A stretch of DNA of 64,000 bases from Candidatus Aminicenantota bacterium (GCA_011049545.1 DRHQ01000017.1:1-64000), one strand, 5' to 3'. Counted from the first letter of the stretch, positions 4,462 through 64,000 are shown. The notes: generated from the sequence alone by a model not told the origin. Numbers and translations are program-made.

Positions 4462-4477
4462 AATGCAGGAGAGAAAA

Positions 4478-4921: not shown

Positions 4922-4990
4922 TTTATTTAATTCCGGATTTCTTCAATTGACTATTTCCCTATCTATTTAGTAAAATTTATTTGTAGTAAA

Positions 4991-5926: not shown

Positions 5927-5930
5927 TGTC

Positions 5931-7367: not shown

Positions 7368-7370
7368 AAA

Positions 7371-20290: not shown

Positions 20291-20809
20291 ATGGTAAAAA
20301 TAAAAATTTCTCGAAATCAATTTTTAGTCCTTTTGGGATGCACTCTTGTATTTGTTATTGTATTGATAGTCGTCCTCCGGATTGTCTGGGGTGGAGTAAG
20401 ACAGCCTATCGCTTTTAATCACCAAATCCACGCAGCCAATGATCTCGAATGCCTGGACTGCCATCCGTATTATGAAGAACAAGCTTCTTCGGGAAGACCA
20501 ACTTTGGAGACTTGCATAACCTGCCATGAAGAACCTCTTGGAGAGAGCAATGCCGAAAGAAAGTTAATCGAATACATTAATTCTAAAGAAGAAATAAAAT
20601 GGGAAAGGCTTTACGATGTACCCGAAGATGTTTATTTTTCTCACAGGAGGCACGTGGTTCTGGGGAATATTGAATGTAGCACCTGCCATGGCGATATTGG
20701 CGAAAGTCCTCGGCCTCCTTCAAAGCCCATTAAAATAAAGATGAAGAAATGTATGAAATGTCACGAAGAAAAAGAGGTTGATAACGATTGTATAGCCTGC
20801 CATATATAG
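20291..20809 (+). CDS. Membrane-anchored pentaheme cytochrome c (QrcA/ActA-like)
   Basis: 172 residues: one N-terminal helix (about 10-33) that anchors the protein, then a periplasmic domain with five CXXCH motifs at 54-58 (CLDCH), 75-79 (CITCH), 129-133 (CSTCH), 154-158 (CMKCH) and 167-171 (CIACH). FNHQIH and FSHRRH supply distal histidines as in cytochrome c3/c7-like proteins. It opens a five-gene set with a Mo-oxidoreductase-like subunit, a FeS subunit, an NrfD protein and a tetraheme protein, the composition of Qrc or alternative complex III. It would carry electrons out of the complex. The start follows the MOSC gene by 4 bp. Confidence 0.82.
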   Translation: MVKIKISRNQFLVLLGCTLVFVIVLIVVLRIVWGGVRQPIAFNHQIHAANDLECLDCHPYYEEQASSGRPTLETCITCHEEPLGESNAERKLIEYINSKEEIKWERLYDVPEDVYFSHRRHVVLGNIECSTCHGDIGESPRPPSKPIKIKMKKCMKCHEEKEVDNDCIACHI

Positions 20810-20857
20810 GCGAAAAGTGAATATGTTATTGCTAAAAGTTTACGAAAGCGTGAATAA

Positions 20858-23317: not shown

Positions 23318-23331
23318 TAAAGGAGAAAAGA

Positions 23332-24024
23332 ATGCCGCGTTGGGGAATGGTTATTGATCTTGATAAGTGTACTGGCTGTCAAGCATGTGTTATTGCCTGC
23401 AAGGCTGAGAACAATATTCCTTTTTCTTCACCCAAAGAAGCGAGGCTAAAAAGAATAATTTCCTGGATGTCTGTGTTGCCAGTAATGGAAGGAGAATACC
23501 CTGATCTGAGAGAAAGATTTATCCCCAGACCTTGTATGCATTGTGATAATCCTCCCTGTGTAAAAGTTTGTCCGGTAGGGGCTACATATAAAAATAGAGA
23601 AGGATTGGTTGCTCAGGTCTACACTCAGTGCATAGGCTGCCGTTATTGTACGAATAACTGTCCTTACACATTAAAATATTTCAATTGGTACACTCCTGAA
23701 TGGCCTAAGGAAATGGAAAATTATTTAAATCCTGACGTCCCCATTCGAAGCAAAGGAGTAGTTGAGAAATGTACTTTCTGCCATCATCGGCTCCAGAAAG
23801 CAAGAGAAAAGGCTCGTGCAGAAAATAGACGTCTTAAAGAAGGTGATTATGTTCCTGCTTGTGTTCAGACGTGTCCGACTGAAGCAATATACTTTGGAGA
23901 CCTGGATGATCCACATAGCCTTGTAGCTAAGCTTGCCAGAGGTCCTCGAGCCTTTCGTCTTTTAGAAGAACTGGGAACAGAACCTAAAGTGTATTATCTT
24001 ACTGAGGGAGAATGGCATGGATAA
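23332..24024 (+). CDS. FeS subunit of the Qrc/Act-like complex
   Basis: 230 residues with four cysteine groups: CTGCQACVIAC, CMHCDNPPCVKVC, CIGCRYCTNNC and CTFCHH...CVQTC. These should bind three or four clusters, as in PsrB, QrcC and the FeS domain of ActB. There is no signal peptide, so export would be by hitch-hiking with the Tat-carrying subunit encoded just upstream. AAAGGAGA precedes the ATG. The 3' end overlaps the NrfD gene by 8 bp. Confidence 0.85.
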   Translation: MPRWGMVIDLDKCTGCQACVIACKAENNIPFSSPKEARLKRIISWMSVLPVMEGEYPDLRERFIPRPCMHCDNPPCVKVCPVGATYKNREGLVAQVYTQCIGCRYCTNNCPYTLKYFNWYTPEWPKEMENYLNPDVPIRSKGVVEKCTFCHHRLQKAREKARAENRRLKEGDYVPACVQTCPTEAIYFGDLDDPHSLVAKLARGPRAFRLLEELGTEPKVYYLTEGEWHG

Positions 24025-25369
24025 GTTGGATGATCTTCTTGTCAGTGATGTAGCAAAAGAAGATGTGCCCATTCTTAAGCCTATTCTGCATACGGGCAAG
24101 AAATTTTATGCGGTGGTTTTTATACTCGTAGTTATTATTTTAATCGGCGTATATGCCTGGATTCTGCAGCTTAAAAAAGGATTGGGGATTACAGGATTAA
24201 ATCATCCAATATTCTGGGGAGTTTACATAACTAACTTTGTCTTTTTCATCGGTATTAGCCATGCAGGAACTCTAATTTCAGCTATCCTTCGTTTAGCCCA
24301 CGCGGAATGGAGAAGAGCCATAACGCGTTCGGCTGAAGTTATAACTGTTTTGGTCCTCTTTTTTGGCGTTTTTAACATAGTCACTGATTTGGGCCGGCCA
24401 GGTCGGATGTTTAAAGTTTTTACTGATGGCAAATTGGGTTCTCCTTTGCTCTGGGATGTTGTGAGCATTTCAATATATTTAGCAGCGAGCGCCATTTATC
24501 TTTATTTGCCTCTTATTCCAGACATAGCCTTGATGAGAGATAAATTAAGAAGTAAAACAAAGAGATTTTTCTATGGAATATTTGCGCTAAATTGGAAAGG
24601 GACAGAAAAACAATGGACCATTCTTGAAAAAGCCATATCTGTGATGGCTGTTATCGTTATCCCTGTAGCTATCTCTGTTCATACTGTTGTTTCCTATGTT
24701 TTTGCTATGACCATTCAGCCCATGTGGCACAGCACAATATTTGGCCCTTATTTCGTCACCGGAGCAATTTTTTCTGGCATTGCTGCCTTGATCCTTGCTA
24801 TGTATTTTATCCGGCGGAGCTATCATCTTGAGGATTATTTAAAGCCGGTTCATTTTAACAATTTGGGTTTATTGATGTTAGTCATGAGTCTCTTATGGTT
24901 TTATTTCACTTTTACTGAAAACCTGACCGCCTTTTATGGAGCTGAACCTGCCCATCTAGCAGTTTTCTGGAGTAAATTCACAGGAGCATATGCACCTTAT
25001 TTTTGGACGATGGTGGTGTGCTGTTTTGTAATTCCTCTCGTTATTTTATCCAATAGAAGAACGAGGACTGTTACTGGTACAATGGTAGTTTCAATATTCG
25101 TTATAATAGGGATGTGGCTGGAGAGATTTACAATAGTGCTCCCCACTTTAATAAATCCCAGACTCCCTTATGAAAGGGGCATATATCATCCTACTTGGAT
25201 CGAATTTGCTGTAACAGCAGGATGCTTTGCTGCTTTTATTTTGCTCTACATGTTATTTACTAAGTTTTTCCCCATAATTTCTATGTGGGAGGTGAAGCAA
25301 GGGAGAGAGAAAGGTATCAAAGAAACTGAGGAACGTATCAAGAGTTATCTTCCAGGAAAAGCACAATGA
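24017..25369 (+). CDS. NrfD/PsrC-family quinone-binding membrane subunit
   Basis: 450 residues with about ten membrane helices (first about 30-53, last about 402-425). GVYITNFVFFIGISHAGTLISAILRL, the RSAEVITVLVLFF helix and FVTGAIFSGIAALILAMYF match the PsrC/NrfD/ActC family that oxidises or reduces menaquinone at the membrane. The conserved His in GISHAG and charged residues inside helices are present. It completes the quinol-handling part of the complex. Overlapping start and stop codons on both sides show coupled expression. Confidence 0.9.
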   Translation: MDKLDDLLVSDVAKEDVPILKPILHTGKKFYAVVFILVVIILIGVYAWILQLKKGLGITGLNHPIFWGVYITNFVFFIGISHAGTLISAILRLAHAEWRRAITRSAEVITVLVLFFGVFNIVTDLGRPGRMFKVFTDGKLGSPLLWDVVSISIYLAASAIYLYLPLIPDIALMRDKLRSKTKRFFYGIFALNWKGTEKQWTILEKAISVMAVIVIPVAISVHTVVSYVFAMTIQPMWHSTIFGPYFVTGAIFSGIAALILAMYFIRRSYHLEDYLKPVHFNNLGLLMLVMSLLWFYFTFTENLTAFYGAEPAHLAVFWSKFTGAYAPYFWTMVVCCFVIPLVILSNRRTRTVTGTMVVSIFVIIGMWLERFTIVLPTLINPRLPYERGIYHPTWIEFAVTAGCFAAFILLYMLFTKFFPIISMWEVKQGREKGIKETEERIKSYLPGKAQ

Positions 25370-26586
25370 AAAAATCGAAAAATACTCCTTTTATTTTATT
25401 AGTTATCTTATTAGGAGTGATTTTCACCTATGGGATTTTGATTTCTTTAGGTGCCTCAGAAGAAAGCGAGACATATCCCTTTCCTGAGGATCCCTTAAAA
25501 GGACGTAAACTTTTCGTTAGTAAAGGCTGTATAAAGTGTCACTCAATCTGGGGAGTAGGAGATCCCCTTGGTCCTGATCTTGCCCAGATGAGTAAAAAAC
25601 AAAATCTTCTTCAGCTAGCGGGATTGCTTTGGAGCCACTCTCCAAAAATGATAGAAATTATGCAAGAGAGAGGAGTTACCCGCCCCACCTTCACTCCCCA
25701 GGAAATGGGAGATTTAATGGGCTATGTTTATTATTTCAATTATTTTGATCAACCAGGCAACTTTATTGAAGGAGAAAAATTATTTCTTGAAAAGGGTTGC
25801 GCCGAATGCCATTTCGTTGGTGAAAACGGAGGCAAAGATAAAATTTCATTGGATGATTATGGAAAGTACATCTCTCCTTCTTTTTTGGCAACCGGCCTCT
25901 GGAATCATAGCCCTGAGATACTTTCTGGAATGAATAGACAAGGTCTAAAACAGCCTGAATTCAAAGGCCAGGAATTGGCTCATTTACTGGCATATCTGCG
26001 GGGTGCGGCTATAAATCAAAACGGAGAAATCATATATGCGGAACCAGGAAGCCCCAAAAGAGGACAGGATATATTTAAGCAAAATAAATGTAACATGTGT
26101 CATGCTGTTTGGGACAAAGGGGGGAGAAAAGCTTCTGATTTGGGAAGAAGAGAATTGCGTCTGCCTCTGACTGAAATAGCTGGTAAATTATGGAGCCATT
26201 CAGGTCACATGTGGGAGGAGATGAAGAAAATCGGTCTTTCTTTTCCGGTCTTTTCGCCAAAAGAAATGGCTGATCTCATCTCTTTTCTTTACTTCATTCA
26301 GTTTTACGATGAAGAAGGAGATCCAAAAGAAGGGAAAAAGCTTTTTCGAGAAAAAACCTGTATTTTTTGTCATGCCTTAGAAGGTGAAGGAGAAAATGTT
26401 GGCCCTGATCTTGGGGAAAGTGAAGCTCATTTTTCGCCTATTTTTTTAGCCTCTGCCATGTGGAATCATGCCGTCGTGATGGAAGATATGTTGGAGGAGA
26501 AAGATCTGGCCTGGCCACGCTTTTCTGGAAATGAGATGCGGGATCTTGTTAGCTATATTAAGAAAGCTACCGAAATATCTAAATAA
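25366..26586 (+). CDS. Tetraheme cytochrome made of four repeated monoheme units
   Basis: 406 residues: N-terminal anchor helix (about 9-30), then four units of about 90 residues, each with a CXXCH (55-59 CIKCH, 145-149 CAECH, 242-246 CNMCH, 332-336 CIFCH). After each heme motif comes a shared block: LLWSHSPKMIEIM, LWNHSPEILSGM, LWSHSGHMWEEM, MWNHAVVMEDML, followed by PxF-(T/S/K)-x-x-EM-x-(D/H)-L. The Met in this block is a good axial ligand candidate. It is the last gene of the five and probably the soluble-side electron outlet. No named family is obvious beyond class I cytochrome c. Confidence 0.8.
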   Translation: MKKSKNTPFILLVILLGVIFTYGILISLGASEESETYPFPEDPLKGRKLFVSKGCIKCHSIWGVGDPLGPDLAQMSKKQNLLQLAGLLWSHSPKMIEIMQERGVTRPTFTPQEMGDLMGYVYYFNYFDQPGNFIEGEKLFLEKGCAECHFVGENGGKDKISLDDYGKYISPSFLATGLWNHSPEILSGMNRQGLKQPEFKGQELAHLLAYLRGAAINQNGEIIYAEPGSPKRGQDIFKQNKCNMCHAVWDKGGRKASDLGRRELRLPLTEIAGKLWSHSGHMWEEMKKIGLSFPVFSPKEMADLISFLYFIQFYDEEGDPKEGKKLFREKTCIFCHALEGEGENVGPDLGESEAHFSPIFLASAMWNHAVVMEDMLEEKDLAWPRFSGNEMRDLVSYIKKATEISK

Positions 26587-26594
26587 GAAAAGAG

Positions 26595-26635
26595 GAAAAA
26601 GGGAATTGTCTCTTTGAAAGCAAAGGTCCTTTTTC
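26595..26635 (+). terminator. Possible terminator after the long operon
   Basis: GAAAAAGG (26595-26602) pairs with CCTTTTTC (26628-26635), and an inner CTTTG-AAAG-CAAAG stem (26612-26625) sits in the loop; pyrimidine-rich TTTCT follows. It begins 8 bp after the stop of the last gene. Confidence 0.4.
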
Positions 26636-26773
26636 TTTCTGAGAATCGGTTAAACATAGAACCTGCATTGCAGGGGAGCGAAACCTTTCCTCGCTTGTCA
26701 ACGTAATTGCAAGGATGGTAAGGGCAGTCGAAGAAACCCTAAGATAAACTGAAAACAAATCCCTATAATTTTG

Positions 26774-26802
26774 TTGACAGAAAAATATTAATTATCTATT
26801 AT
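26774..26802 (+). promoter_or_regulatory. Sigma-70-type promoter for the cytochrome-porin gene
   Basis: TTGACA (26774-26779), 17 bp, TATTAT (26797-26802), 43 bp before the ATG at 26846. The strong match suggests that this gene is transcribed separately from the preceding operon. Confidence 0.6.
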
Positions 26803-26845
26803 ACTTTTCCGACTATATAAATAAAACATATAAAAGGAGTAAGGA

Positions 26846-28075
26846 ATGACTAAAAAAATTATCTTATCTTTTCTTTTTCTTCTGGGAATTTCTGCTGTGG
26901 CCTTCGCTCAAGCAGATGCTTATAAAGGGGAAAAGCTTTATCAGCTCAAATGCGGACGCTGTCATTTTGCTTATGCGCCAGAGAAGTATTCTCCTGAAGA
27001 ATGGAAGACATTGGTCAATGAAATGGGTCCCTTGTCTGGATTAGACGAGGAGAGCGAGAAACTCATATTGGATTATCTTACCGAGAAAGCCAGTGCGAAA
27101 GAGAGGGGCGCTCTTCCCACAAGCCCTGTTTTAGCTGGTTATGTTTACACCGAATTTTTTTCATATAAAGATAAAGTCGATACTTTTGACTCCCACTATT
27201 TAAACGTAAGCTTAGCCGGCCGTCTTCACCAGCGCGTATCATACCGGGCAGAATTTGAATTTGAACATGGCGGTGGCAGCGCTGAGCCCCCGTTTATTGA
27301 ACAAGCCTGGGTTGATGTCTGGTTTATGAGAAATATGGCCCTTAGAATCGGGGCTATGCTGACTCCTTTCAATCGCTTTGATGATTTTCACGGTCCACTC
27401 GAGAATTTTCTCGTCACTCGGCCCCAGATGTCGAGGGAAATCGGGGTAAGTGCCTGGAAAGAAGTAGGTATAAACTTTCACGGCAATCTGTTCATCCATA
27501 AGGATTTTTATATAAATTATGATGCCTATGTAATAAATGGTCTTGGGAGCGGAAGCCGATTGAGAAAAAGTCGTCAATACACGGATAATAATGATGCTAA
27601 GAGCCTGGGTTTTCGCCTGAGCGGAGTGATAGCAGACAGATGGGAAGTAGGAGCTTCTTATTATCGAGGCGCCTGGGATGATGACGGGGATTTAAATCTA
27701 ACCATGTATGGTCTTCACCTGCTGGGAAAAATTGGCGAATTCAGTCTTTTTGCTGAGTATTCTCACTCCTCTTCTGAAAATCCAGGACTCATAGAAAAGG
27801 GAAAAGCTGATGGTTTCTTTATCCAGGGATCATACTTGATAAACGGAAAATTTCGGTCAACTATTCGGTATGGGACTTTGGATTATCTGGACCCGGGAAG
27901 CCTCCTGGGAAGAAGTTCGACCGATTATGATACGAAAGCCATTGCCTTGGCCTTTAATTATTATCTAACTCGGCTAATTGTTTTCAAATTTGAATACGAC
28001 ATTGTTCAGGAAGGCCCGCGCAAGACAGATATAAGTAATAACGTTCTCTCTCTGCAAGTAGCATTTAGATTTTAA
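26846..28075 (+). CDS. Monoheme cytochrome c fused to an outer-membrane beta-barrel
   Basis: 409 residues. After a signal peptide (cut near AFAQA) there is a small class I cytochrome domain, about residues 24-83, with CGRCH (36-40) and M60 as possible axial ligand. From about residue 95 to the end it is a barrel: HYLNVSLAGRLHQRVSYRAEFEFEH, WVDVWFMRNMALRIGAMLTPFNRFDDF (a pattern common in porins), ending VLSLQVAFRF with C-terminal Phe. The order signal - heme - porin is that of Cyc2-type proteins, which move electrons across the outer membrane in iron oxidisers. This is an architectural similarity; I see no proof of function. AAAGGAG precedes the ATG. Confidence 0.75.
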   Translation: MTKKIILSFLFLLGISAVAFAQADAYKGEKLYQLKCGRCHFAYAPEKYSPEEWKTLVNEMGPLSGLDEESEKLILDYLTEKASAKERGALPTSPVLAGYVYTEFFSYKDKVDTFDSHYLNVSLAGRLHQRVSYRAEFEFEHGGGSAEPPFIEQAWVDVWFMRNMALRIGAMLTPFNRFDDFHGPLENFLVTRPQMSREIGVSAWKEVGINFHGNLFIHKDFYINYDAYVINGLGSGSRLRKSRQYTDNNDAKSLGFRLSGVIADRWEVGASYYRGAWDDDGDLNLTMYGLHLLGKIGEFSLFAEYSHSSSENPGLIEKGKADGFFIQGSYLINGKFRSTIRYGTLDYLDPGSLLGRSSTDYDTKAIALAFNYYLTRLIVFKFEYDIVQEGPRKTDISNNVLSLQVAFRF

Positions 28076-53359: not shown

Positions 53360-54595
53360 TCATTCAAACTTCCATTCAATAACCTCTTTTAATGCCCATT
53401 CAGGAGATTTATCTTTGTGACAATTATTGCAGCCATTGGGTGTCCCATTCCTGATAGTAGCCAGGGGCGATATGAATGTGAAACTATGGTCTCTTGCATC
53501 CCACTTCATAGCGTTTTTACCAGTTTTCGGCATGTGGCACTCGATACATCTGCTTCCCAGATTATTTAACTCGTGATGGGTATGTTCTGAAAGGTCATTT
53601 TTGAATACTGCATATAGAGCATTATCTCCATGGCAGGGGAGACAGAGTGAGTTATTCTCGCCAGACTTTACAGTGAAAGAGGTGTAGCGGCTGCCATGCG
53701 TGTCATGACAGGTAAAACAACGAAGCCCTTTACGGTACATCTTGCTCTGGATAAAGGTATTTCCTTGAACCCGATTCTTATGAGCATATCCATCAGCCCA
53801 CATCTCATAGGCATTCTCTCCTGTTGGCTTGGCATAGACCCAATATTTCTTTAAATCCTCCTCTGGCTTATAACCAACAGGCCAGGCATAATTTTCAAAC
53901 TCACCTTTAGGAGGGCGGCCGCTCATATGGCATTGGAAACAAATCATATTGCCGCGCTCATGATTAAGGTTGGCAGGATTGATGATATGTCCTTTTCCTT
54001 CTTCTTCTACATGAAGACTGCCAGGGCCATGGCATGATTCGCAGGTGATGTTCCGTTCTGCAGGTATCTTTGTCTTAGTATTAAAGCCTGTCGTATGGCA
54101 TCCCTCGCATAATTTTGAGGTGGGGCGCTTATTCCATTCTTTCGGGTAGACGCCCTCCCGTGCCCACCAGTCATTTTTCGGCTGATATGTAACCCATTCC
54201 TTTGTTTCTACATTCCACTGGGCAGGTAGCATATAATAGTCATCACCGATCTTTTTTGCATACCGCTGCTTAAATCGGCTTCCGACCAGCATGTCCACAT
54301 CCTCTAGAGTGAATGGAAGATGGAAATCCTTACTTGAAAAGTCCCCGAGGATATTCTTATTCGGGCCTTCCTTTATCGCTTCCTGTTCCATCTTGCTGTG
54401 AAGGGTAGTTTTCCAGCCTTGATAATGTTCTTCATGACATACAGCGCATGACTCTGAGCCTGCATATTCTTTAATACCTTCCTTTTGGGGTTTATCATAA
54501 GAATGAGCCAGGAAAACAAGGGCTAGAATCAAAACTAAAATTGCATTTATCAAAACTCCCTTTTTCTTCATAAATTGCAAAATAGATTTTCTCAT
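53360..54595 (-). CDS. Octaheme c-type cytochrome (c554-like)
   Basis: 411 residues from the ATG at 54595 (GGGGAGGA upstream; ATG at 54598 is too close). A helix near the N-terminus (VLINAILVLILALVFLAHS) exports or anchors it. Eight CXXCH motifs: CAVCH, CEGCH, CESCH, CFQCH, CFTCH, CLPCH, CIECH, CNNCH. YAGSESCAVCHEEHYQGWKTTLHSKM at the start is typical of cytochrome c554/octaheme proteins. There is no CXXCK, so it is not a standard NrfA nitrite reductase. Possible roles are electron transfer to the barrel encoded next or reduction of a nitrogen or sulfur compound. Confidence 0.82.
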   Translation of the reverse strand: MRKSILQFMKKKGVLINAILVLILALVFLAHSYDKPQKEGIKEYAGSESCAVCHEEHYQGWKTTLHSKMEQEAIKEGPNKNILGDFSSKDFHLPFTLEDVDMLVGSRFKQRYAKKIGDDYYMLPAQWNVETKEWVTYQPKNDWWAREGVYPKEWNKRPTSKLCEGCHTTGFNTKTKIPAERNITCESCHGPGSLHVEEEGKGHIINPANLNHERGNMICFQCHMSGRPPKGEFENYAWPVGYKPEEDLKKYWVYAKPTGENAYEMWADGYAHKNRVQGNTFIQSKMYRKGLRCFTCHDTHGSRYTSFTVKSGENNSLCLPCHGDNALYAVFKNDLSEHTHHELNNLGSRCIECHMPKTGKNAMKWDARDHSFTFISPLATIRNGTPNGCNNCHKDKSPEWALKEVIEWKFE

Positions 54596-54766
54596 CATAA
54601 TCCTCCCCTTAAACTCATTATCTCCAATCACATTTGTTCTTCAAGCAAAAGTTTTTATTTTTCGACCGAGAAGATTAAGAATTTTAGCATTACGTGTCCA
54701 GACATTATTTATAGAAATTTGCTTTATTTATCATAGATTCCAAATTTCCCTTATTTTATTGTACAA

Positions 54767-54797
54767 TATTAATATTATATTTCCTATTAATATTATA
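54767..54797. repeat. A+T-rich direct repeat in a divergent promoter region
   Basis: TATTAATATTATA occurs at 54767-54779 and 54785-54797, 18 bp apart, in the 440-bp gap between divergent cytochrome genes. Each contains the palindrome AATATT. It could be an operator pair; otherwise the gap holds only A+T-rich sequence and the promoter below. Confidence 0.3.
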
Positions 54798-54874
54798 GAT
54801 AATATAAATATTCATATTTTTTATCAAGATTAATCAATAGACCCAGTACTAACCAAAACAAAACCATAAAAATC

Positions 54875-54903
54875 TTGACAAAATTAATTTGTAGAAGTAA
54901 TAA
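54875..54903 (+). promoter_or_regulatory. Sigma-70-type promoter for the triheme cytochrome operon
   Basis: TTGACA (54875-54880), 17 bp, TAATAA (54898-54903). The leader to the ATG at 55036 is about 125 bases. Confidence 0.5.
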
Positions 54904-55035
54904 GATATTATTTATATGTTTGATAGAGAAAATTATTAATATTAAATAAATAGAAAGATTTTTAGAAAAGCGCGATTTCGCACTCTTAGAGAAAAGCAAC
55001 TATCTCTCATTAATACCAGAAAAGGAGGTCTAAAT

Positions 55036-55938
55036 ATGAAAAAACCAATTTTACTGTTGATAGCCATCCTGGCGGTCCTGATTTTTGGACTTGCCTACAG
55101 CAGCTCTCAAGCTCAGAAGAGGGAGAGGCATCAACAAGAAGAAGCTCTGAATGCTCTTTATGCTCCGCTTCCCAGCTCGCTGGACGCTCTATATCCCCCG
55201 CAAGCAGAACAACCAATTTTCTTGTTCAGGATGATGGAGATGGCGACACCTTATGTGGGCATTGTTGTCGACCTGTTTGAGAATGACCTTCAGAATGCCA
55301 AAAATAATTTTGAAAGGTTCAAAGCCCAGTATGTTGATGTCTCGAAACTGGTACCTGAATGGAAGAAAAGTTATCTGCTAGACCCTGTGGAGGAACTTGG
55401 GGAAGTCCTAAAGACGGGAGACCAGGATGAAGTAATGGCGGCATATGAGAAAGTAGGTAACATATGTCATGACTGTCACCTAGTGAATATGGTTAAAGTT
55501 CAACAAAAATTCCATTGGCAGGATTTTCGGACGATAAAGGTCAAAGACCCTCTGACTGATGAGCAGGTGGATTTTCGCCTACTGATGCAGTATCTCGTCA
55601 CAAATTTTATAGGAATCAGTGTGGATACTATAGAAGGCCAGAAAGAAAACGCTCAACAACAGTTTCAAGGTTTCAAGGCGAGATTTCAGGCAATGAAGGA
55701 TACCTGCGAGGAATGTCACGCTACAGAAGAGAGGAAGTATTATGTTGATGAGAGCGTGCAAGCTTTGGTGGATGAGATGGGGAAGGCTTTAAATAAACCT
55801 TCTGTTGATCCGAAAGAGGTGGAAACACTTGCCCAGAGGATTGGGATGGAGAGTTGTTTCAAGTGCCATTTGGTCCATCTCCCGGCTGCCATGGTTAAGT
55901 ATCAACGGGAGAAATGGGAAAATATCAATAGAAATTAA
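55036..55938 (+). CDS. Triheme cytochrome with internally duplicated helical units
   Basis: 300 residues, signal anchor 5-22, CXXCH at 144-148 (CHDCH), 224-228 (CEECH) and 274-278 (CFKCH). The body is a duplication: residues about 63-160 (FRMMEMATPYVGIVVDLFE...KNNFERFKAQYVDV...) align with about 180-290 (FRLLMQYLVTNFIGISVDTIE...QQQFQGFKARFQAM...). Each unit should have two hemes, but where the second has CEECH the first has VPEWKK, so one heme has been lost. Helical bundles with C-terminal heme recall cytochrome c'. Strong ribosome site AAAGGAGGT. A membrane protein follows. Confidence 0.75.
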   Translation: MKKPILLLIAILAVLIFGLAYSSSQAQKRERHQQEEALNALYAPLPSSLDALYPPQAEQPIFLFRMMEMATPYVGIVVDLFENDLQNAKNNFERFKAQYVDVSKLVPEWKKSYLLDPVEELGEVLKTGDQDEVMAAYEKVGNICHDCHLVNMVKVQQKFHWQDFRTIKVKDPLTDEQVDFRLLMQYLVTNFIGISVDTIEGQKENAQQQFQGFKARFQAMKDTCEECHATEERKYYVDESVQALVDEMGKALNKPSVDPKEVETLAQRIGMESCFKCHLVHLPAAMVKYQREKWENINRN

Positions 55939-55962
55939 ACTTAAAAAAGTGAGGTGAGGTAA

Positions 55963-56466
55963 ATGAATGATATTTTTAAATTGATTTCACTCTCTATCTT
56001 GAATTGGCTCCATTTGATTGCGACAGTGGTCTGGATTGGCGGAATAGGCACCAATTTATTGATTCTAATGCCCTCCATGAGAGAGGCTTTGGAGCCTCCG
56101 ATGATGGGGAAGCTGATGGGCGCGGTGATGAAGAGGTTCCGTAGCTTAGTCTATGCCAGCATTGCGGTACTGGGTGTAACTGGAATTTTGATGAACTTCC
56201 TAAATGAGAACTATCTGGGTTTATTGCGGTTCGGAAACCCTTGGAGCCAAATTTCTTTAATCAAACACATCTTCACGGTAGCCTTAATTATCCTCGCAGT
56301 ATACGCTTTCGAAGGCCTTGGCCCAAAGGTCTCCAGACTTGCCGTAAAAGGTCCTTCACCGGAACTAGCTGGTCTTCAAAGGTTGCAGATCAAGCTTGCC
56401 ACCACAGGTTTAATCATGGGCATTATAATCCTCCTCTTGACAGGCATAGCAACAGCTATTTCATAG
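55963..56466 (+). CDS. CopD-like four-helix membrane protein
   Basis: 167 residues: helices about 9-31, 55-76, 91-113 and 138-161. LNWLHLIATVVWIGGIGTNLLILMPS matches the first helix of CopD/DUF4149-like proteins, with histidines (LHLIA and IKHIFTV) that could bind heme or copper within the membrane. It lies 24 bp after the triheme cytochrome and is probably its membrane partner. The protein at 39145 is a distant relative. After it comes a 297-bp A+T-rich gap without other features. Confidence 0.65.
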   Translation: MNDIFKLISLSILNWLHLIATVVWIGGIGTNLLILMPSMREALEPPMMGKLMGAVMKRFRSLVYASIAVLGVTGILMNFLNENYLGLLRFGNPWSQISLIKHIFTVALIILAVYAFEGLGPKVSRLAVKGPSPELAGLQRLQIKLATTGLIMGIIILLLTGIATAIS

Positions 56467-56763: not shown

Positions 56764-57348
56764 ATGAAAAATTTATTTTTATTTCTATTATTTAGTTACG
56801 TTTTATTTTCTTCTACTAGTAATGCGTCTGAGATCGAGGGGATTGTTTCAAGCCAATCTAAAAAACTAGAGAATGCTGTAGTCTATATAAAGAAGATTGA
56901 AAGTAAAAAATTTTTGCCGCCAAAAAAGCCAGTGGTTTTATATCAAACCGGACTTAGATTTGTTCCGCATGTTCTGCCCGTGATTGTCGGGACTACCGTT
57001 AATTTTCCCAACGAAGATGATGTCCTTCATAATGTTTTTTCTCCTGGACACATAAATAGATTTAATCTGGGGACTTACCTTCAAGGTTCAAACAAAGCTG
57101 TGAAATTTAACAAACCAGGAGTAGCCCTGCTTCTCTGTAATATTCATCATGAAATGTCGGCTTTTGTCGTCGTCGTTGAAACCCCTTACTTCGCAGTTAC
57201 CGACAGCAATGGGAATTATAGAATAAGCAATGTACCTCCGGGTAAATACAGCCTATCCGTCTGGCATGAGGAGATGAAGCCTCAAATCAAGGAAATCAAA
57301 ACTTCGGACAAAGGAATTATCACTATTAATTTTATGATGAAAAAATAA
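56764..57348 (+). CDS. Amicyanin-like cupredoxin with carboxypeptidase-regulatory-type tail
   Basis: 194 residues, signal peptide ending NASE. The copper ligands are visible: H89 (DDVLHNVFSPG), then C125-x2-H128-x2-M131 (LLCNIHHEM), the amicyanin spacing. The last 50 residues (PYFAVTDSNGNYRISNVPPGKYSLSVWHEEMK) form a carboxypeptidase-regulatory-like beta sandwich. A type I copper site means periplasmic one-electron transfer. Proteins of this make are often labelled methylamine utilisation proteins, but no methylamine dehydrogenase is present. A similar protein starts at 63533. It precedes the kinase by 21 bp. The ribosome site is weak. Confidence 0.8.
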   Translation: MKNLFLFLLFSYVLFSSTSNASEIEGIVSSQSKKLENAVVYIKKIESKKFLPPKKPVVLYQTGLRFVPHVLPVIVGTTVNFPNEDDVLHNVFSPGHINRFNLGTYLQGSNKAVKFNKPGVALLLCNIHHEMSAFVVVVETPYFAVTDSNGNYRISNVPPGKYSLSVWHEEMKPQIKEIKTSDKGIITINFMMKK

Positions 57349-57369
57349 ACATAGACAAATTAGATTGAT

Positions 57370-59715
57370 ATGAGAAAAATCTTTCATTGGATAGATTCCC
57401 GATTCGGGATCCAGGGCAAATTAACTATTATATTCATTTTATTTTCAATGCTCCCTCTTGTTTTTATTGGCCTCTATGCGATTCGGAACCACCTCGATTC
57501 CATGAAGATAAGAAGTTTGCAGAATATTAAGATTGACATCCAAGAATTAAAGGAAAGAACTTCCGCTTTTTTTGCCAATACCGAGAGCGAGATGCGGTTG
57601 TTGTCGCGCACGACCGAAATGACTCGTTTTCTTGAAAGTCTTGAAAGCACTGGCCCTGCCGACTCAAGTATGCAGGTTGAAGTTGAAAAAGAAATTTTAG
57701 GATTATTGGAAAATAAATCTTACTATACAAAAATAGATGTCTTAAATAATAAAGGCAAAGAGGTTTTTGCCGTTTTATTTGATAGGAATATTCCGTACCT
57801 GCTGCCCCCGGAATATTTATCCGACAATCCTTTCTGGTTTTATCTTTATGCTGTTGAAGGTATGAAATCGGGTGAAGCACTAATTCTTCCCTCCGAAATA
57901 ATGCATCCTGAAAAAAAAGAAATCATTCAGACCATAAGTCTTGTTATGCCCATGTTTGACCATCAGGATGAACTTATTTCTATGCTCATCGCGCATATGG
58001 ATTTCCAGGAATTCATCGGTTTGTTTGACATTTCCAGAAGAATTTACGGCGGAAAAATTGTTATAGTCGACAAAGAAGGCTATTACATATACAACTCCCT
58101 TGAAAATGATTGGAATAAACTCCTTGCCAATCGTGGCCAGAAAAACCTCTTTAATGATTACCCTCAACAGATGGCTGATCGCCTTCTTGCAGGTGGCCAG
58201 GGTACGATTACTGAAGATCAAGATAGAATAATTGAGTACGCAACCATTTTGCCCCAGAACATCAGGGAGGCCGGTTATTACATCATTTTCATTGACGTGG
58301 CGACCTCAGTAATTTTTTCCAGGATTCAGCAATTTCAGAAGTTATTTATCTTCCTAGTAATGATTGTCGGCATTATTTCAGTTTCGGTCGGTTATCTGAC
58401 GGCACGACATTATCTCAAACCGATAAAGCATCTTATTAGGGGGGCAAAAAATATAAAGGAAGGGAACCTTGATTTTAAATTTTCCACTGAAAGTCGTGAT
58501 GAAATTCAAATTTTAGTCGAAAGTTTTAACCTTTTGATAAAAAAAGCCCAGAAAGCACTTAAAGAAAGCGAAGAGCGTTTTATCCAGATCTTTAAGCAAA
58601 GCGAATATGCAATAATCATATTTGATCCCAAAAATCATAAAATAATAGATGCTAATCCAACAGCATTAAGGATTTATGGATACACAGGAAACGAACTAAT
58701 AAAGAGTGATATTTCTTTATTATTCGAGCCGTTGAGTTATCGAAGATTCAAAAAAGTCACTGATTCGATTGAAAAGAATGAAAAATTCTATGTTGAACAG
58801 ATTGACAGTTTGAAAAAAGATGGGACTAGCTTCAAAGTTGCGGTTCTCGGGAAAATCATTAAATTAGTAAATGTTAATGTTATCTTGTGTGATTTCCGGG
58901 ATTTGACCGAAGAGAACCGCATGAAAGAAGAGGCGCAATTGATTCAAGAAAAGTTAATGCACACCGATAAAATGGCATCCCTGGGGATACTTGCCTCAGG
59001 CGTTGCACATGAGATTAATAATCCCACCAATTCTATTATGTTGAACACTGCAGCTTTATCAGAAATTTGGGAAAATTTGATGCCCATCATCGATAGATAT
59101 TATGAAGAGAACCAAGATTTCACAGTCAAGGGAATAAAATATTCAGAAATCAGGGAAAAAGTTCCCCAGCTGGTCCGAGGGGTATCAGGTGCTAGCAGAC
59201 GAATCAAGAATATCACGAGTAATTTAAAAGATTTTGCCCGTCCAGAGCCAGATGGTTTTAAGAAAGATGTGGACATCAATAAGGTCATTAAGACGGCTCT
59301 TTCTCTTATCAGAAATCTCCTTTTAAAATCAACAAAGCATTTTTCTGTCAGTTATGGAAACTCCATCCCTCCCTTTAAGGCAAATTTCCAGAAGCTTGAA
59401 CAGGTGATAATTAATCTAGTACAAAATGCATGTGAAGCCCTGACTGATGCAAATAAAAAAATAAGTTTATCAACATCGTATAAAGAGAAAACAAAAAATA
59501 TAGAAGTGATAATTGAAGATGAAGGTAGCGGGATCCTGAAGGATAACCTTGAACATATTACAGATCCCTTTTTTACAACCAAACGGAGCAGTGGCGGCAC
59601 AGGATTAGGTTTATCAATCGCTTCTTCCATAATCAGGGATCATGGAGGAACGCTAAATTTTATCTCAGAGGAGGGTAAGGGGACTGTTGTCACCATCAAC
59701 TTACCTGTAAAATGA
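57370..59715 (+). CDS. Membrane histidine kinase with Cache-like, HAMP and PAS domains
   Basis: 781 residues: helix 1 (about 18-38), a 280-residue extracytoplasmic sensor of Cache type (about 40-318, RIYGGKIVIVDKEGYYIYNS), helix 2 (about 324-345), HAMP (about 346-398), PAS (about 400-515, IIIFDPKNHKIIDANPTALRIYGYTG), phosphoacceptor H547 (LASGVAHEINNPTNS) and ATPase domain (NLVQNACEAL, IEDEGSGI, GGTGLGLSIA). All catalytic boxes are intact. Together with the next gene it forms a two-component system whose likely target is the sigma-54 promoter at 61552. Stimulus unknown. Confidence 0.9.
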   Translation: MRKIFHWIDSRFGIQGKLTIIFILFSMLPLVFIGLYAIRNHLDSMKIRSLQNIKIDIQELKERTSAFFANTESEMRLLSRTTEMTRFLESLESTGPADSSMQVEVEKEILGLLENKSYYTKIDVLNNKGKEVFAVLFDRNIPYLLPPEYLSDNPFWFYLYAVEGMKSGEALILPSEIMHPEKKEIIQTISLVMPMFDHQDELISMLIAHMDFQEFIGLFDISRRIYGGKIVIVDKEGYYIYNSLENDWNKLLANRGQKNLFNDYPQQMADRLLAGGQGTITEDQDRIIEYATILPQNIREAGYYIIFIDVATSVIFSRIQQFQKLFIFLVMIVGIISVSVGYLTARHYLKPIKHLIRGAKNIKEGNLDFKFSTESRDEIQILVESFNLLIKKAQKALKESEERFIQIFKQSEYAIIIFDPKNHKIIDANPTALRIYGYTGNELIKSDISLLFEPLSYRRFKKVTDSIEKNEKFYVEQIDSLKKDGTSFKVAVLGKIIKLVNVNVILCDFRDLTEENRMKEEAQLIQEKLMHTDKMASLGILASGVAHEINNPTNSIMLNTAALSEIWENLMPIIDRYYEENQDFTVKGIKYSEIREKVPQLVRGVSGASRRIKNITSNLKDFARPEPDGFKKDVDINKVIKTALSLIRNLLLKSTKHFSVSYGNSIPPFKANFQKLEQVIINLVQNACEALTDANKKISLSTSYKEKTKNIEVIIEDEGSGILKDNLEHITDPFFTTKRSSGGTGLGLSIASSIIRDHGGTLNFISEEGKGTVVTINLPVK

Positions 59716-59734
59716 AAACAGAGGAGGATTACAA

Positions 59735-61162
59735 TTGGCATTGTTTCCGAATCTTCCGATTATGATTGTTGATGACGAAGAGAGCGCTCTGGAAAGCTTT
59801 GAAACCACACTGAGACTAGGTGGTATCAATAACATACTTAAATGCAAGGACAGTCGGAAAGTCTTATCCATCATTACCGAGCGAAAAATCGAATGCATGC
59901 TGCTGGATATTAGCATGCCCCATATTTCAGGCTTAGAATTGCTTCCGAAACTGAAAGAAGACTTCCCGAACATCCCTATTATTATCATTACCGGGATAGA
60001 TGAGGTCGATACCGCAGTGGAATGCATGAGAAATGGTGCCGATGATTATATGGTCAAGCCGGTTGAAAAGAACCGGCTGATTTCAGGGGTAAAACTAGTT
60101 ATTGAACTGGAAGAGATGAAAAAGAATTATTCCCTTTTGCGGCAGCAATTTTTTTCAGATAAACTTGAACACCCGGATGCCTTTGCCGAAATAATTACTG
60201 CCAGTCCATCTATGAAATCGATCTTTCAGTATATCGAAGTAATAGCCTCCAGCCCTGAGCCTGTCTTGATTACCGGAGAGACAGGCGTAGGAAAGGAATT
60301 GATTGCCAAAGCGATTCATAATCTCAGTAAAAGGGAGGGTAATTTTGTTGCGGTCAACGTAGCAGGCCTTGATGATCACATCTTTTCCGACACACTCTTT
60401 GGCCACGAAAAAGGAGCTTTTACAGATGCCCATCATGCCCGAAGCGGTATGATCGAGCAAGCCTCTGGTGGCACTCTTTTCCTGGATGAAATTGGCGAAC
60501 TGAGCATCACCTCTCAGGTAAAACTGCTTCGCCTGCTCCAGGAGTATGAATACTACCCCTTGGGTTCGGATATTTTAAAATACTCTGACGCCCGAGTCGT
60601 TATTGCAACCAACCATGAGTTAGAAACTATGCTCGAATCTGGACAATTCCGCAAAGATCTTTATCACAGAATTCGTGTTCACCAAGTCCATGTCCCTCCC
60701 CTCCGGGAACATCTGGAAGATATTCCGCTTCTTGCCGACCATTTTCTAGAACAGGCTTCAAAAAAATTGCAGAAAAAAAAGCCCACGGCTCCCAAAGAGT
60801 TGATCCCCTTATTGCAGGCTTATCATTTTCCGGGCAACGTAAGAGAGCTGCAGGGTATGGTATTCAATGCGGTCAGTACACATAAATCAAAGGTGCTCTC
60901 CCTTGATTCCTTCAAGGCGACCATGTTTAAACAGGAAGACCTGAAAGTATCGGATTTAAGCCAATTCATTGATGATCCTGGTTCGCTTGTGACGTTTTCC
61001 AGCAAATTGCCAACCCTCAAGCAGGCCGACCGGCTCCTCACAGCAGAGGCAATGCGGCGGGCCAAAAAGAATCAGGCGATTGCTGCCCGCATGCTTGGAA
61101 TTTCCAGGCAAGCATTAAACAACCGCTTGAAGCTTTTCAAACAAAAACTGATCAAAACTTAA
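59735..61162 (+). CDS. NtrC-family response regulator with GAFTDA loop
   Basis: 475 residues. It starts at a TTG with GAGGAGG seven bases upstream; no better ATG exists. Receiver 8-125 with D58 (MLLDISMPHISG); AAA+ with Walker A GETGVGKE (181-188) and FLDEIGEL; Fis-type helix-turn-helix at the end (NQAIAARMLGISRQALNNRLK). The sigma-54 contact loop reads GAFTDA (227-232) instead of GAFTGA. This variant also occurs in functional family members to my knowledge, and a perfect sigma-54 promoter lies 390 bp downstream. Paired with the kinase encoded 20 bp before. Confidence 0.9.
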   Translation: MALFPNLPIMIVDDEESALESFETTLRLGGINNILKCKDSRKVLSIITERKIECMLLDISMPHISGLELLPKLKEDFPNIPIIIITGIDEVDTAVECMRNGADDYMVKPVEKNRLISGVKLVIELEEMKKNYSLLRQQFFSDKLEHPDAFAEIITASPSMKSIFQYIEVIASSPEPVLITGETGVGKELIAKAIHNLSKREGNFVAVNVAGLDDHIFSDTLFGHEKGAFTDAHHARSGMIEQASGGTLFLDEIGELSITSQVKLLRLLQEYEYYPLGSDILKYSDARVVIATNHELETMLESGQFRKDLYHRIRVHQVHVPPLREHLEDIPLLADHFLEQASKKLQKKKPTAPKELIPLLQAYHFPGNVRELQGMVFNAVSTHKSKVLSLDSFKATMFKQEDLKVSDLSQFIDDPGSLVTFSSKLPTLKQADRLLTAEAMRRAKKNQAIAARMLGISRQALNNRLKLFKQKLIKT

Positions 61163-61551
61163 CTCACTTTCTGAGAGAACCAATAAGTTTAGCTCCTCCA
61201 GAATATTATGTCTTCCTTTTTCTCCGGCTCTTTAACATTTTGACTCATTGTTTCCTCATACTTATCTGAAGTTACCGGATTTGATTTGAATCATTTCTTA
61301 GAGATATGAAGGGGTGCAATATTATTTGCTTTGTCAATTCATTATTTTTTATAGAAAACTATTGAATTAGCCATATTTAAACTACAAAAGCAAAATTTCT
61401 GTCAATTTTATTTGCATCACTTTGCTTCCTGGCCCAAAAGGGCGAAAAAACAATTTCATCTTTCTTTTACAGCTATTTTTTAGAACATTTAGCCTGAAAA
61501 CAATTCTTACAATTTATTTTAGGGAAATTTAGTTATTGGTTTAGACCAAGC
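61163..61551. other. 389-bp gap upstream of a sigma-54 promoter
   Basis: No gene is seen. TGTCAATT occurs at 61332-61339 and 61400-61407, a weak candidate for activator half-sites. No clear terminator follows the regulator gene. Confidence 0.3.
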
Positions 61552-61567
61552 TGGCACTAACCTTGCA
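61552..61567 (+). promoter_or_regulatory. Perfect sigma-54 promoter
   Basis: TGGCACTAACCTTGCA matches TGGCAC-N5-TTGCA at every defined position. Transcription would start near 61578, at or next to the GTG start codon of the receiver gene at 61579. It should drive that gene and the cytochrome-porin after it, under the regulator at 59735. Confidence 0.85.
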
Positions 61568-61578
61568 TATATTCTAAT

Positions 61579-61956
61579 GTGGTTGAAAAGGATGTCGTCC
61601 TTGTAGAAGAGGAAAAGGATTCGCTTCTCTCCGTTAGCTTGATACTGAAATTCAATGGATATAAAGTGACTATCTTTAAGAGTTTTAATGAGGCATTGGA
61701 AAAAATCCTGGCCTTCGAAAAAGAATCAAGTTTCTATGAGCTTCTAATAACCGATATTCCAGTATCCCGATTAGCCAATAAGGACCTTGCAGATAAACGC
61801 AGTAAATTGAACAATAAATTCCCGATTTATGTGATAACAGATTTTGTGGACAAGAAAATACTCAAGGAACATGAAGAAAAGGGCTTTTATTTAATAGAAA
61901 AACCCCTGCATCCACAGGATTTGTTGAAATATATAAATAAAACTTTTAAAGAATAA
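61579..61956 (+). CDS. Stand-alone receiver-domain protein
   Basis: 125 residues, one receiver domain. VVLVEEEKDSLLSVSLILKFNGYKVTIF gives the acidic pocket, LLITDIPV the phosphoacceptor Asp (about residue 55), IYVITD the switch Thr and IEKPLHP the Lys. Around the Asp the sequence departs from the usual D-x-x-MP. The GTG start coincides with the predicted sigma-54 transcription start, so the mRNA would have almost no leader and no ribosome site. Output is unknown; it may sink phosphate from the kinase at 57370 or fine-tune it. The cytochrome-porin follows 14 bp later. Confidence 0.65.
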   Translation: MVEKDVVLVEEEKDSLLSVSLILKFNGYKVTIFKSFNEALEKILAFEKESSFYELLITDIPVSRLANKDLADKRSKLNNKFPIYVITDFVDKKILKEHEEKGFYLIEKPLHPQDLLKYINKTFKE

Positions 61957-61970
61957 AAAAGGAGAATGTA

Positions 61971-63236
61971 ATGAAAAAAGTATGGAAGTTTTGGTTGTTC
62001 GGTCTTTTCGGATTTATAATGTTTAGTTTTCTGGTTCAAACAGCACAATCGCTCCCCACATTTTCAAGGAAATTCGAGACCAGTTGTTCCACCTGCCACG
62101 TGTCTGTTCCTAAACTTACAGCTTTCGGAGAAAGCTTTAGGCTTAATGGTTATCAAATTCCTGAAGGTGATGAGAAATACATAAAGCAAAAGCCTACTTC
62201 TTTAGGGGCAGAACCATGGAAAGAAGTTTGGCCTAATGCCATCTGGCCTGGTGCTATACCCGGTTCATTTCCCCTGTCTGCCTGGATAATGTTTGATGGG
62301 AAGGCACCCTTACAAGGAGCGAATAAGGAGTTAATATTTGACTTCCCCCACGAGGTTGAAATATTTATGGCCGGAATTCTGGGGGAGAATGTTCCCTTCT
62401 TCGCTGAAGTTGAAATTGAGGGAGGAGAAGTAGGGGCTGAAGCCTGGTTGGGTTTTTATAGTCTTTTTAATTCTGACAGAGCTCTTAATTTAAGGGTTGG
62501 CACATTCGAGGTTAATCCTTTGCCCATGTTTTTTGATCATTTGAGGTTAGGCAAGGAGCATTATCTGTATAATAACTGGCGTATGCCTGGGAGCGAGAAT
62601 AACTTTCGATTAAGAGGTGGAAAGCCAGGTCTTGAACTGAATGGAATCGTTGGCAGTCGTTTTTATTACAGTACGGGGATATTAAGTCCTGGGGGCGGTC
62701 TTGATGGCTATGGAACTTTTCGCTTCAAATTAGGGGGAACACCTTATAATCGCTCTGCTCCCACAGAAGAAGCTGCAGATAAAGCAATTGGCGTCCTACC
62801 AACAGGATTTTGGGTCGATAATGCCTTCGAACTCGCTGCTTTCGCCTATTTTGGGAAAACGGACGTTGCTGCAGATGTTCCTGATTCCTTTAACCGTTTG
62901 GGAGTAGGTGCCCGCTGGACGTATCAGAATTTTGATCTCGCCGCTGCCTATATTCTTGGAAAAAACAATGATCCCTTCGCTACCGGAGCTACAGGAAGCG
63001 AGGTGGATTCTAAAGGCTTCCAGATAGAAGGCTCTTATTATATTTTCCCCTGGCTGATTGCCGAGGCAAGATATGAGACCTTAAAGTTAGATGATACTGT
63101 AACCCTACTGGATCAGAAAAACACTATAGTTGGACTTATATGGATGCTCAGGGCTAACGTTAAATTAGTAACTGAAGCTACTTTTAGCAATACTTCGGAT
63201 AATATCCTTAATGTCCGCCTGATTTTCGGCTTTTAG
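61971..63236 (+). CDS. Cyc2-like fused cytochrome-porin
   Basis: 421 residues. Signal peptide ends near AQSLP. Directly after it, PTFSRKFETSCSTCHVSVPK (heme motif 39-43) and LTAFGESFRLNGYQIP form a short heme segment like the one that opens Cyc2 iron-oxidation proteins. The rest (about 95-421) is a barrel: FPLSAWIMFDGKAPLQ, VEIFMAGILGENVPFFAEVEIEGG, LNLRVGTFEVNPLPMFFDHLRLG, FRLRGGKPGLELNGIVG, and it ends NILNVRLIFGF with terminal Phe. AAAGGAGA precedes the ATG. Under a sigma-54 promoter and beside two cupredoxins, it is likely an electron conduit in the outer membrane. Cyc2 identity is by motif and layout only; donor and direction are unknown. Confidence 0.75.
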   Translation: MKKVWKFWLFGLFGFIMFSFLVQTAQSLPTFSRKFETSCSTCHVSVPKLTAFGESFRLNGYQIPEGDEKYIKQKPTSLGAEPWKEVWPNAIWPGAIPGSFPLSAWIMFDGKAPLQGANKELIFDFPHEVEIFMAGILGENVPFFAEVEIEGGEVGAEAWLGFYSLFNSDRALNLRVGTFEVNPLPMFFDHLRLGKEHYLYNNWRMPGSENNFRLRGGKPGLELNGIVGSRFYYSTGILSPGGGLDGYGTFRFKLGGTPYNRSAPTEEAADKAIGVLPTGFWVDNAFELAAFAYFGKTDVAADVPDSFNRLGVGARWTYQNFDLAAAYILGKNNDPFATGATGSEVDSKGFQIEGSYYIFPWLIAEARYETLKLDDTVTLLDQKNTIVGLIWMLRANVKLVTEATFSNTSDNILNVRLIFGF

Positions 63237-63333
63237 TCAGCGTTTTTGGGCTAGTTTGAAGTTTTGGTAGTGACGGACAGGATTCCTGTTCCTCTCTTGA
63301 TTGCAGACCGTGATAGGAAAGGGATAGATTAGG

Positions 63334-63391
63334 GATCCTGTTCCGAGCAAGGGAGATTGCTTCGTCCCCTTCAGGACTCGCAAAGACATGA
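63334..63391. repeat. Short dispersed repeat, copy C (inverted, partial)
   Basis: GATCCTGTTCCGAGCAAGGG and, further on, AGGACTCGCAAAGACATGAG correspond to parts of the element at 33080-33225: the first in the same orientation, the second as the complement of its TGTCATTGCGAG end. It lies in the 296-bp gap before the last gene; nothing else is seen there. Confidence 0.5.
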
Positions 63392-63532
63392 GAGGAATCA
63401 TATCTGCTTCCAGCCAGGGCAACTTTCTACTACAGGTTCATTATATTTTATCGAAAAAAGGGTTAATAAAAAGTTCCATAAATTTCTTATCTTAAGAAAA
63501 AAATATAATATGAAAGAAAGGGAGGAAACAAG

Positions 63533-64000
63533 ATGAAAATACAAAAAATTATGAAGGCTATAATCTTTGCATTATTCATAATGAGTGGGTCATTTTTTAC
63601 ACTCACTCTCTTCCCAAATGGGAGTAGCGGTGAAAATGAAAGCGAAACTGGGATTATTACCGGGACAGTAAAAGTTTCCAGGGCTCGCCACTCGGGTGAC
63701 GTTGTGGCTTACTTAGAAAGAGAGGGCCTTAAAAAGGAATACCCTCCTTTGGAAAAGCATAGCACCCTTGACCAAAAGAACCTTGTGTTTATTCCCCGGG
63801 TGCTTCCGATATTAAAAGGAACAACAGTAGACTTTCGAAACAGTGATGATGTTCAACACAATATTTTTGCCCCTGGGAAAGTTGAAAAATTTAATTTGGG
63901 AACATGGGGACTTGGAGGAATAAAAGAGTATACTTTTAGTAAGCCTGGTGAAGTAGTCATACTCTGTAATGTTCATTCTGAGATGGTTGCTTATATAATT
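63533..64000 (+). CDS. Second amicyanin-like cupredoxin, 3' end beyond window
   Basis: 156 codons are visible from the ATG at 63533 (GGGAGGA upstream), then the window ends in frame. Signal peptide KAIIFALFIMSGSFFTLTLF. Copper ligands H109 (DDVQHNIFAPG) and C145-x2-H148-x2-M151 (LCNVHSEM), the same spacing as the protein at 56764, with which it shares FVPHVLP/FIPRVLP, GTTVxFxNxDDV and the FNLGT stretch. It is thus a paralogue, probably also followed by a regulatory-like tail. It is close downstream of the cytochrome-porin and a plausible redox partner. Confidence 0.8.
   Translation, partial: MKIQKIMKAIIFALFIMSGSFFTLTLFPNGSSGENESETGIITGTVKVSRARHSGDVVAYLEREGLKKEYPPLEKHSTLDQKNLVFIPRVLPILKGTTVDFRNSDDVQHNIFAPGKVEKFNLGTWGLGGIKEYTFSKPGEVVILCNVHSEMVAYII

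Follow-up and report, generated by a model that had tools for sequence, protein, structure and literature searches.

What does a Cyc2-like cytochrome-porin do in a bacterium of the Candidatus Aminicenantota, where its gene stands between two copper proteins and behind a sigma-54 regulator? The question is raised by a 64,000-nucleotide stretch of one such genome (GCA_011049545.1, DRHQ01000017.1:1-64000; hereafter the window). Coordinates are positions in the window, and those above 64000 lie on the same contig beyond its end. An earlier note, made from the sequence alone, had drawn a six-gene module here (cupredoxin, kinase, regulator, receiver, heme-porin, cupredoxin) and proposed that it might be an undescribed electron path across the outer membrane. 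All six open reading frames lie where that note placed them, and Pfam agrees on the kinase, regulator, and receiver. We postulate, with a probability of about 0.6, that the locus is an electron conduit through the cell envelope that connects an extracellular partner with the quinone pool and is under sigma-54 control in this genome.

A conserved cytochrome-porin, cupredoxin, and Rieske gene set

The Cyc2-like gene (61971 to 63236, plus strand) encodes a 421-residue protein with a signal peptide, one CxxCH, a PKL, a predicted beta-barrel, and a final phenylalanine. After a spacing of 296 bp comes CupB, a second type 1 copper protein with a carboxypeptidase-regulatory-like domain (plus strand, 63533 to 64000 in the window, with the gene end at 64183 on the contig). 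The contig then carries genes for a Rieske protein (64188 to 64712), a b6-like cytochrome b (64715 to 65476), a subunit-IV-like protein (65493 to 66380), an octaheme c-type cytochrome of 844 residues with eight CxxCH motifs (66385 to 68919), and a monoheme c-type cytochrome (68916 to 69350). These genes run head to tail from CupB onward with intergenic gaps of -4 to 16 bp, and by spacing they therefore form a single operon. The module does not end at CupB but continues through the Rieske/cytochrome b genes for 5.2 kb past the window end.

Among about 100 relatives, a close copy (69%) of the window Cyc2-like protein was found only in genome G098, where a cupredoxin comes directly after it. The first search also yielded one relative from outside the whole-genome set, a contig of a Desulfobacterota-type metagenome-assembled genome (L004) with the order Cyc2-like, cupredoxin, one more gene, Rieske, cytochrome b, octaheme c, monoheme c. 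Searched with a profile made from the window, L004, and G098 sequences (A1; threshold E ≤ 1e-40), 32 genomes out of 396 in the phylum gave a match. The phylum is probably the Acidobacteriota; the site of the Acidobacteria probe HoAc1402 is present in the 16S of two of its four near-complete f33 genomes, for which Geothrix would be a speculative name. Of 32 loci that could be evaluated, 31 have a cupredoxin next to the Cyc2-like gene, a count that includes L115 by reading an over-extended open reading frame and sets aside three loci cut by contig ends (L103, L127, and L131). The Rieske, cytochrome b, and octaheme set lies downstream in 19 of the 25 loci that have at least 7.5 kb of downstream DNA, and an Nfn/GltD-like oxidoreductase gene separates the cupredoxin from the Rieske gene in 15 loci. 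Locus counts are not independent, as four loci come from one genus.

After the cupredoxin, the Rieske/cytochrome b complex is the strongest conserved partner of the Cyc2-like gene. The conserved unit is the Cyc2-like, cupredoxin, and Rieske/cytochrome b set rather than six genes that co-occur: in the neighborhood survey, the lone receiver had no counterpart in the other module loci compared and is private to this genome, and the NtrC genes adjacent to the modules are not one clade. Nor does every Cyc2-like protein of the class belong to such a module, since nearly all of about 40 other loci lack the partners. At one locus (L118, genome G336), an in-frame TAG splits the Cyc2-like gene and leaves an open reading frame that lacks the heme motif, with the cupredoxin and Rieske complex genes still downstream.

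Components of the predicted electron path

Published identifiers of Cyc2 are AXPXFAR[QK][TY], CXXCH, and PXL motifs, a length of at least 365 residues, and a C-terminal 16-strand porin (PMC8406198). At its N terminus, the window protein reads SLPTFSRKF-ETS-CSTCH-VSV-PKL, in which SLPTFSRKF fits the first motif with three conservative changes and the single CXXCH is followed four residues on by PXL (CSTCHVSVPKL); its length is above the published minimum. The CXXCH-PXL pair is invariant across the family, and the first motif occurs in its strict form in 20 of 33 members and in a relaxed form in 32. The family profile aligned with a canonical Cyc2 profile over the full length of both (hhalign probability, 99.5; E, 8e-23; columns 1 to 449 against 1 to 442). 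The canonical alignment consisted of one same-order homologue and plasmid homologues from Acidithiobacillus (A. ferrooxidans plasmid), Caballeronia, Paraburkholderia, Methylocystis, Ideonella, and Polymorphobacter. By profile similarity, then, the resemblance to Cyc2 that had been seen in the heme-porin holds, and the protein is a Cyc2 homologue on a separate branch that is not placed in a characterized cluster.

The match to Cyc2 was made through the family profile. The window protein alone gave no match in Pfam or in NCBIfam; Pfam Porin_O_P, the fold class reported for Cyc2 (PMC8406198), matched in 4 of 33 family members. PDB sequence searches with the window protein and with the family profile gave no match, a plasmid search with the window protein gave an N-terminal match only, and a viral-contig search found no relative. 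An outer-membrane barrel, with a putative heme plug, is predicted from homology, the Porin_O_P matches, the terminal aromatic residue (F or Y in 29 of 33 members), and a modest excess of amphipathic segments.

Like Acidithiobacillus Cyc2, Mariprofundus Cyc2-PV1, and Leptospirillum Cyt572, the window protein combines a signal peptide, one CxxCH between a near match to the FAR[QK]-type motif and PXL, and a C terminus of porin length, and the profile similarity spans its whole length. Unlike them, its family lies on a branch separate from the canonical cluster sampled and recurrently has cupredoxin and Rieske/cytochrome b complex genes as partners, and its own motif is conservatively degenerate. 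Strict monophyly of the module-linked proteins was not supported, because partnerless homologues nest among them in the tree. Separately, a same-order genome (G042) encodes a canonical Cyc2 (L071, 8485 to 9897) that matches the Caballeronia homologue at 45% and that of the A. ferrooxidans plasmid at 37%.

The first copper protein, CupA (56764 to 57348, plus strand), was assigned from its open reading frame, Pfam, and its ligand pattern as a secreted type 1 copper protein with an amicyanin-type loop (LCNIHHEM) and a C-terminal carboxypeptidase-regulatory-like domain. Both CupA and CupB show the H...C-x2-H-x2-M pattern and weak Pfam matches to plastocyanin-type copper domains, and they are the only two such cupredoxin genes in the genome. 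The four ligands (H, C, H, and M) are kept in 36 of 36 module cupredoxins. The copper site had been called amicyanin type, which is right for the ligand loop and wrong for family membership: the score against the NCBIfam amicyanin family (TIGR02657) was 15.4 bits, below the cutoff of 110.2, and the cupredoxin profile is nearer to the copper domains of copper nitrite reductase (CuNIR) and to plastocyanin than to amicyanin. The window proteins also differ from amicyanin in their extra C-terminal domain and in the lack of a methylamine dehydrogenase context.

The closest solved chains to the window Rieske protein are 9rk3 (E, 2e-30) and 9rk4 (E, 5e-27), followed by b6f at 1e-15. These two chains come from Kuenenia (Kustd1480 and Kuste4569), and their Rieske potentials are +335 and +303 mV; their complexes contain a b6-like cytochrome b, subunit IV, a hexa- or octaheme c, and an NAD(P) oxidoreductase and have been proposed to bifurcate electrons to NAD(P) (PMC12954380). 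The anammox-type set of Rieske, b6, subunit IV, and multiheme c is complete downstream of CupB, which matches the gene sets Kustd1480-1485 and Kuste4569-4574. In relatives of the window locus, the likeness extends to the NAD(P) oxidoreductase, as the gene between cupredoxin and Rieske matches NfnA/Nfn large subunits. In contrast to the Kuenenia complexes, the window complex is clustered with a cytochrome-porin and a cupredoxin.

Sigma-54 setting and neighboring genes

Between CupA and the cytochrome-porin, all on the plus strand, lie a membrane histidine kinase (57370 to 59715; periplasmic dCache-like sensor, HAMP, PAS, and HATPase domains, from the open reading frame and Pfam), an NtrC-type sigma-54-dependent response regulator (59735 to 61162; AtoC/NtrC-like at 338 bits, below equivalog cutoffs), and a lone receiver-domain protein (61579 to 61956; an open reading frame with a weak receiver match). 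Upstream of the receiver, at 61552 to 61566, is the sequence TGGCACTAACCTTGC, a -24/-12 element that fits TGGCAC-N5-TTGC with zero mismatches and is the only such site in the 64 kb. The genome also contains rpoN, the gene for sigma-54, so that activator, site, and sigma factor are all present. The perfect promoter sequence and the sigma-54 setting described before are thus confirmed. We speculate that the promoter is active and that the NtrC-type regulator and sigma-54 would drive a transcript of the receiver and cytochrome-porin in this genome.

Perfect -24/-12 sites within 500 bp upstream were found for 3 of 34 Cyc2-like genes (the window, L108, and L123), against 0.013 expected from dinucleotide shuffles and none on the opposite strand. 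Of about 31 loci, 12 have an NtrC-type regulator gene upstream and in the same orientation. The idea that the module-linked regulators are one orthologous group was not supported, as the tree shows no single clade; sigma-54 control was therefore probably recruited more than once among module loci. The predicted transcription start, about 12 nucleotides past the -12 element, nearly coincides with the GTG start codon of the receiver, which makes the translation start of the receiver uncertain. As read at 61552 to 61580, the receiver would be leaderless or begin elsewhere, and an out-of-frame ATG overlaps the GTG.

Just upstream of the module (53360 to 56466) are genes for a cytochrome with eight CxxCH motifs (minus strand), a c'-like cytochrome with three, and a CopD-like membrane protein. 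At 2062 to 8711, NapA and a diheme NapB-like protein precede a binding-protein-like gene, a histidine kinase, and an NtrC regulator, making a second respiratory cluster with an NtrC-type system; NapA scored above the TIGR01706 cutoff. Another cluster (20291 to 28075), with a pentaheme cytochrome, a molybdopterin-type protein, an iron-sulfur protein, an NrfD-like protein, and a multiheme c, resembles alternative complex III or Qrc. No match above the cutoff was found for an MtrC/OmcA-type decaheme cytochrome.

Direction of electron flow and competing explanations

In the conduit that we postulate, the outer-membrane Cyc2-family monoheme cytochrome-porin would swap single electrons with an extracellular redox partner, for which dissolved Fe(II) is our best guess. 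The type 1 copper proteins would ferry electrons over the periplasm to the octaheme cytochrome of the anammox-type Rieske/b6/subunit-IV complex, which would link to the quinone pool. That an undescribed path of this kind exists, as was suggested before, seems probable to us, and the pairing of a Cyc2-family porin with an amicyanin-loop cupredoxin in a sigma-54/NtrC setting is borne out. We slightly favor inward flow, that is, electron uptake with nitrate reduction by NapA as the sink here and cytochrome oxidases as the sink in most relatives; the inward version would add uphill flow through the Rieske complex. This lean reflects four points: all Cyc2 proteins studied biochemically oxidize iron (PMC8406198), Acidithiobacillus ferrooxidans offers an analogy, 29 of 31 relatives carrying the Cyc2-like family encode PF00115 (a superfamily that also takes in nitric oxide reductases), and NapA is encoded in the same window.

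The likeness to A. ferrooxidans lies in Cyc2 with copper proteins, as in its rus operon, and in its petI operon, where a bc1 complex comes with an NAD-linked accessory protein (PMC10654088). The window system differs in being one gene cluster that lacks oxidase genes, uses another copper protein family, has a b6/subunit-IV/octaheme complex in place of bc1, and adds sigma-54 regulation. The rus operon layout itself (cyc2, coxBACD, and rusticyanin) is not found here, as no COX1 was detected in the genome and the cupredoxins have the C-x2-H-x2-M loop.

Several observations weigh against the conduit as postulated. In the genome, which is 89.7% complete, no heme-copper oxidase (COX1), cytochrome bd, or RuBisCO was detected, so aerobic iron oxidation is unlikely in this organism. 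The window cluster has no adjacent Nfn-like NAD(P) oxidoreductase gene; Nfn/GltD-like genes are encoded elsewhere in the genome. Genome G098 has other genes behind its Cyc2-like/cupredoxin pair (L034, 12355 to 15870), namely, a COX2-like CuA membrane protein, a Fer4_5 NapH-like protein, a COX2-cytochrome c fusion, and SCO1, and then a histidine kinase and NtrC. The canonical Cyc2 sequences sampled form a single clade with full support, set apart by a long branch, with the module proteins outside it, in a tree where clusters 1 and 3 are not represented by named sequences. Evidence for the barrel is modest, with 17 amphipathic segments where shuffles give 12.3 ± 2.1, and AlphaFold2, run on the window protein and one relative (two sequences), returned no usable model (predicted local distance difference test score, 28.6).

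That no oxidase or RuBisCO was detected also speaks for an outward conduit, in which the Rieske/cytochrome b complex would oxidize quinol and hand the electrons on by way of octaheme c, the cupredoxin, and the Cyc2-like porin to an extracellular acceptor of high potential such as Mn(IV), chelated Fe(III), oxidized humics, or an electrode. With an Nfn-like subunit, bifurcation could also make NAD(P)H. The high potentials and proposed bifurcation of the Rieske kin point the same way, as do cluster 3 Cyc2 genes in known iron reducers; FeGenie rates cluster 3 as probably for oxidation and possibly for reduction (PMC7005843). However, the iron oxidase activity of all tested Cyc2 proteins argues for the reverse direction, a heme near +208 mV would be a very poor reductant of sparingly soluble Fe(III) oxides, oxidase-type genes are present in most relatives, and NapA is an internal acceptor on offer here. 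Outward flow is a serious possibility that we consider somewhat improbable. Alternatively, the heme-porin may act as a redox-gated channel or sensor without any extracellular transfer, with the copper proteins carrying electrons in the periplasm from the Rieske complex to NapA or to an oxidase. Cyc2-like paralogues without partners are frequent in the class, the G098 pair is tied to CuA/SCO1 genes, and the porin part is poorly conserved, all of which would fit; yet the constant partner is the cytochrome-porin and not a periplasmic reductase, and Cyc2 homology covers the full length, and we regard this explanation as very unlikely.

Within the postulated conduit, a more specific and rather doubtful proposal is that a bifurcating anammox-type Rieske/cytochrome b complex is wired via a copper protein to the Cyc2-family porin, and that NAD(P)H turnover would either power electron exchange with the outside or be powered by it. 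Iron oxidation genes (Cyc2 or sulfocyanin homologues) have already been noted in Aminicenantes, and Cyc572 homologues have been noted in Acidobacteria (PMC7005843, PMC10654088). We found no description of the arrangement of Cyc2-like, cupredoxin, and Rieske complex genes in the open literature, a search that did not cover subscription papers.

The recurrence of the gene set across the phylum suggests an undescribed way to exchange electrons with iron or other extracellular material. Since no terminal oxidase was detected in this genome, aerobic iron oxidation should not be read from a Cyc2-like gene alone. Through the module, a large branch of Cyc2-like proteins is tied to a defined copper carrier and to a defined complex linked to quinone, so that direction, partner, and energy coupling can be tested, among others in four members of a single genus (f33 g69) whose assemblies consist of 1 to about 10 contigs. 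If the bifurcating version of the conduit is real, it would be a whole-envelope extracellular electron pathway encoded in one cluster, found across the phylum (probably the Acidobacteriota) and extending into the Desulfobacterota.

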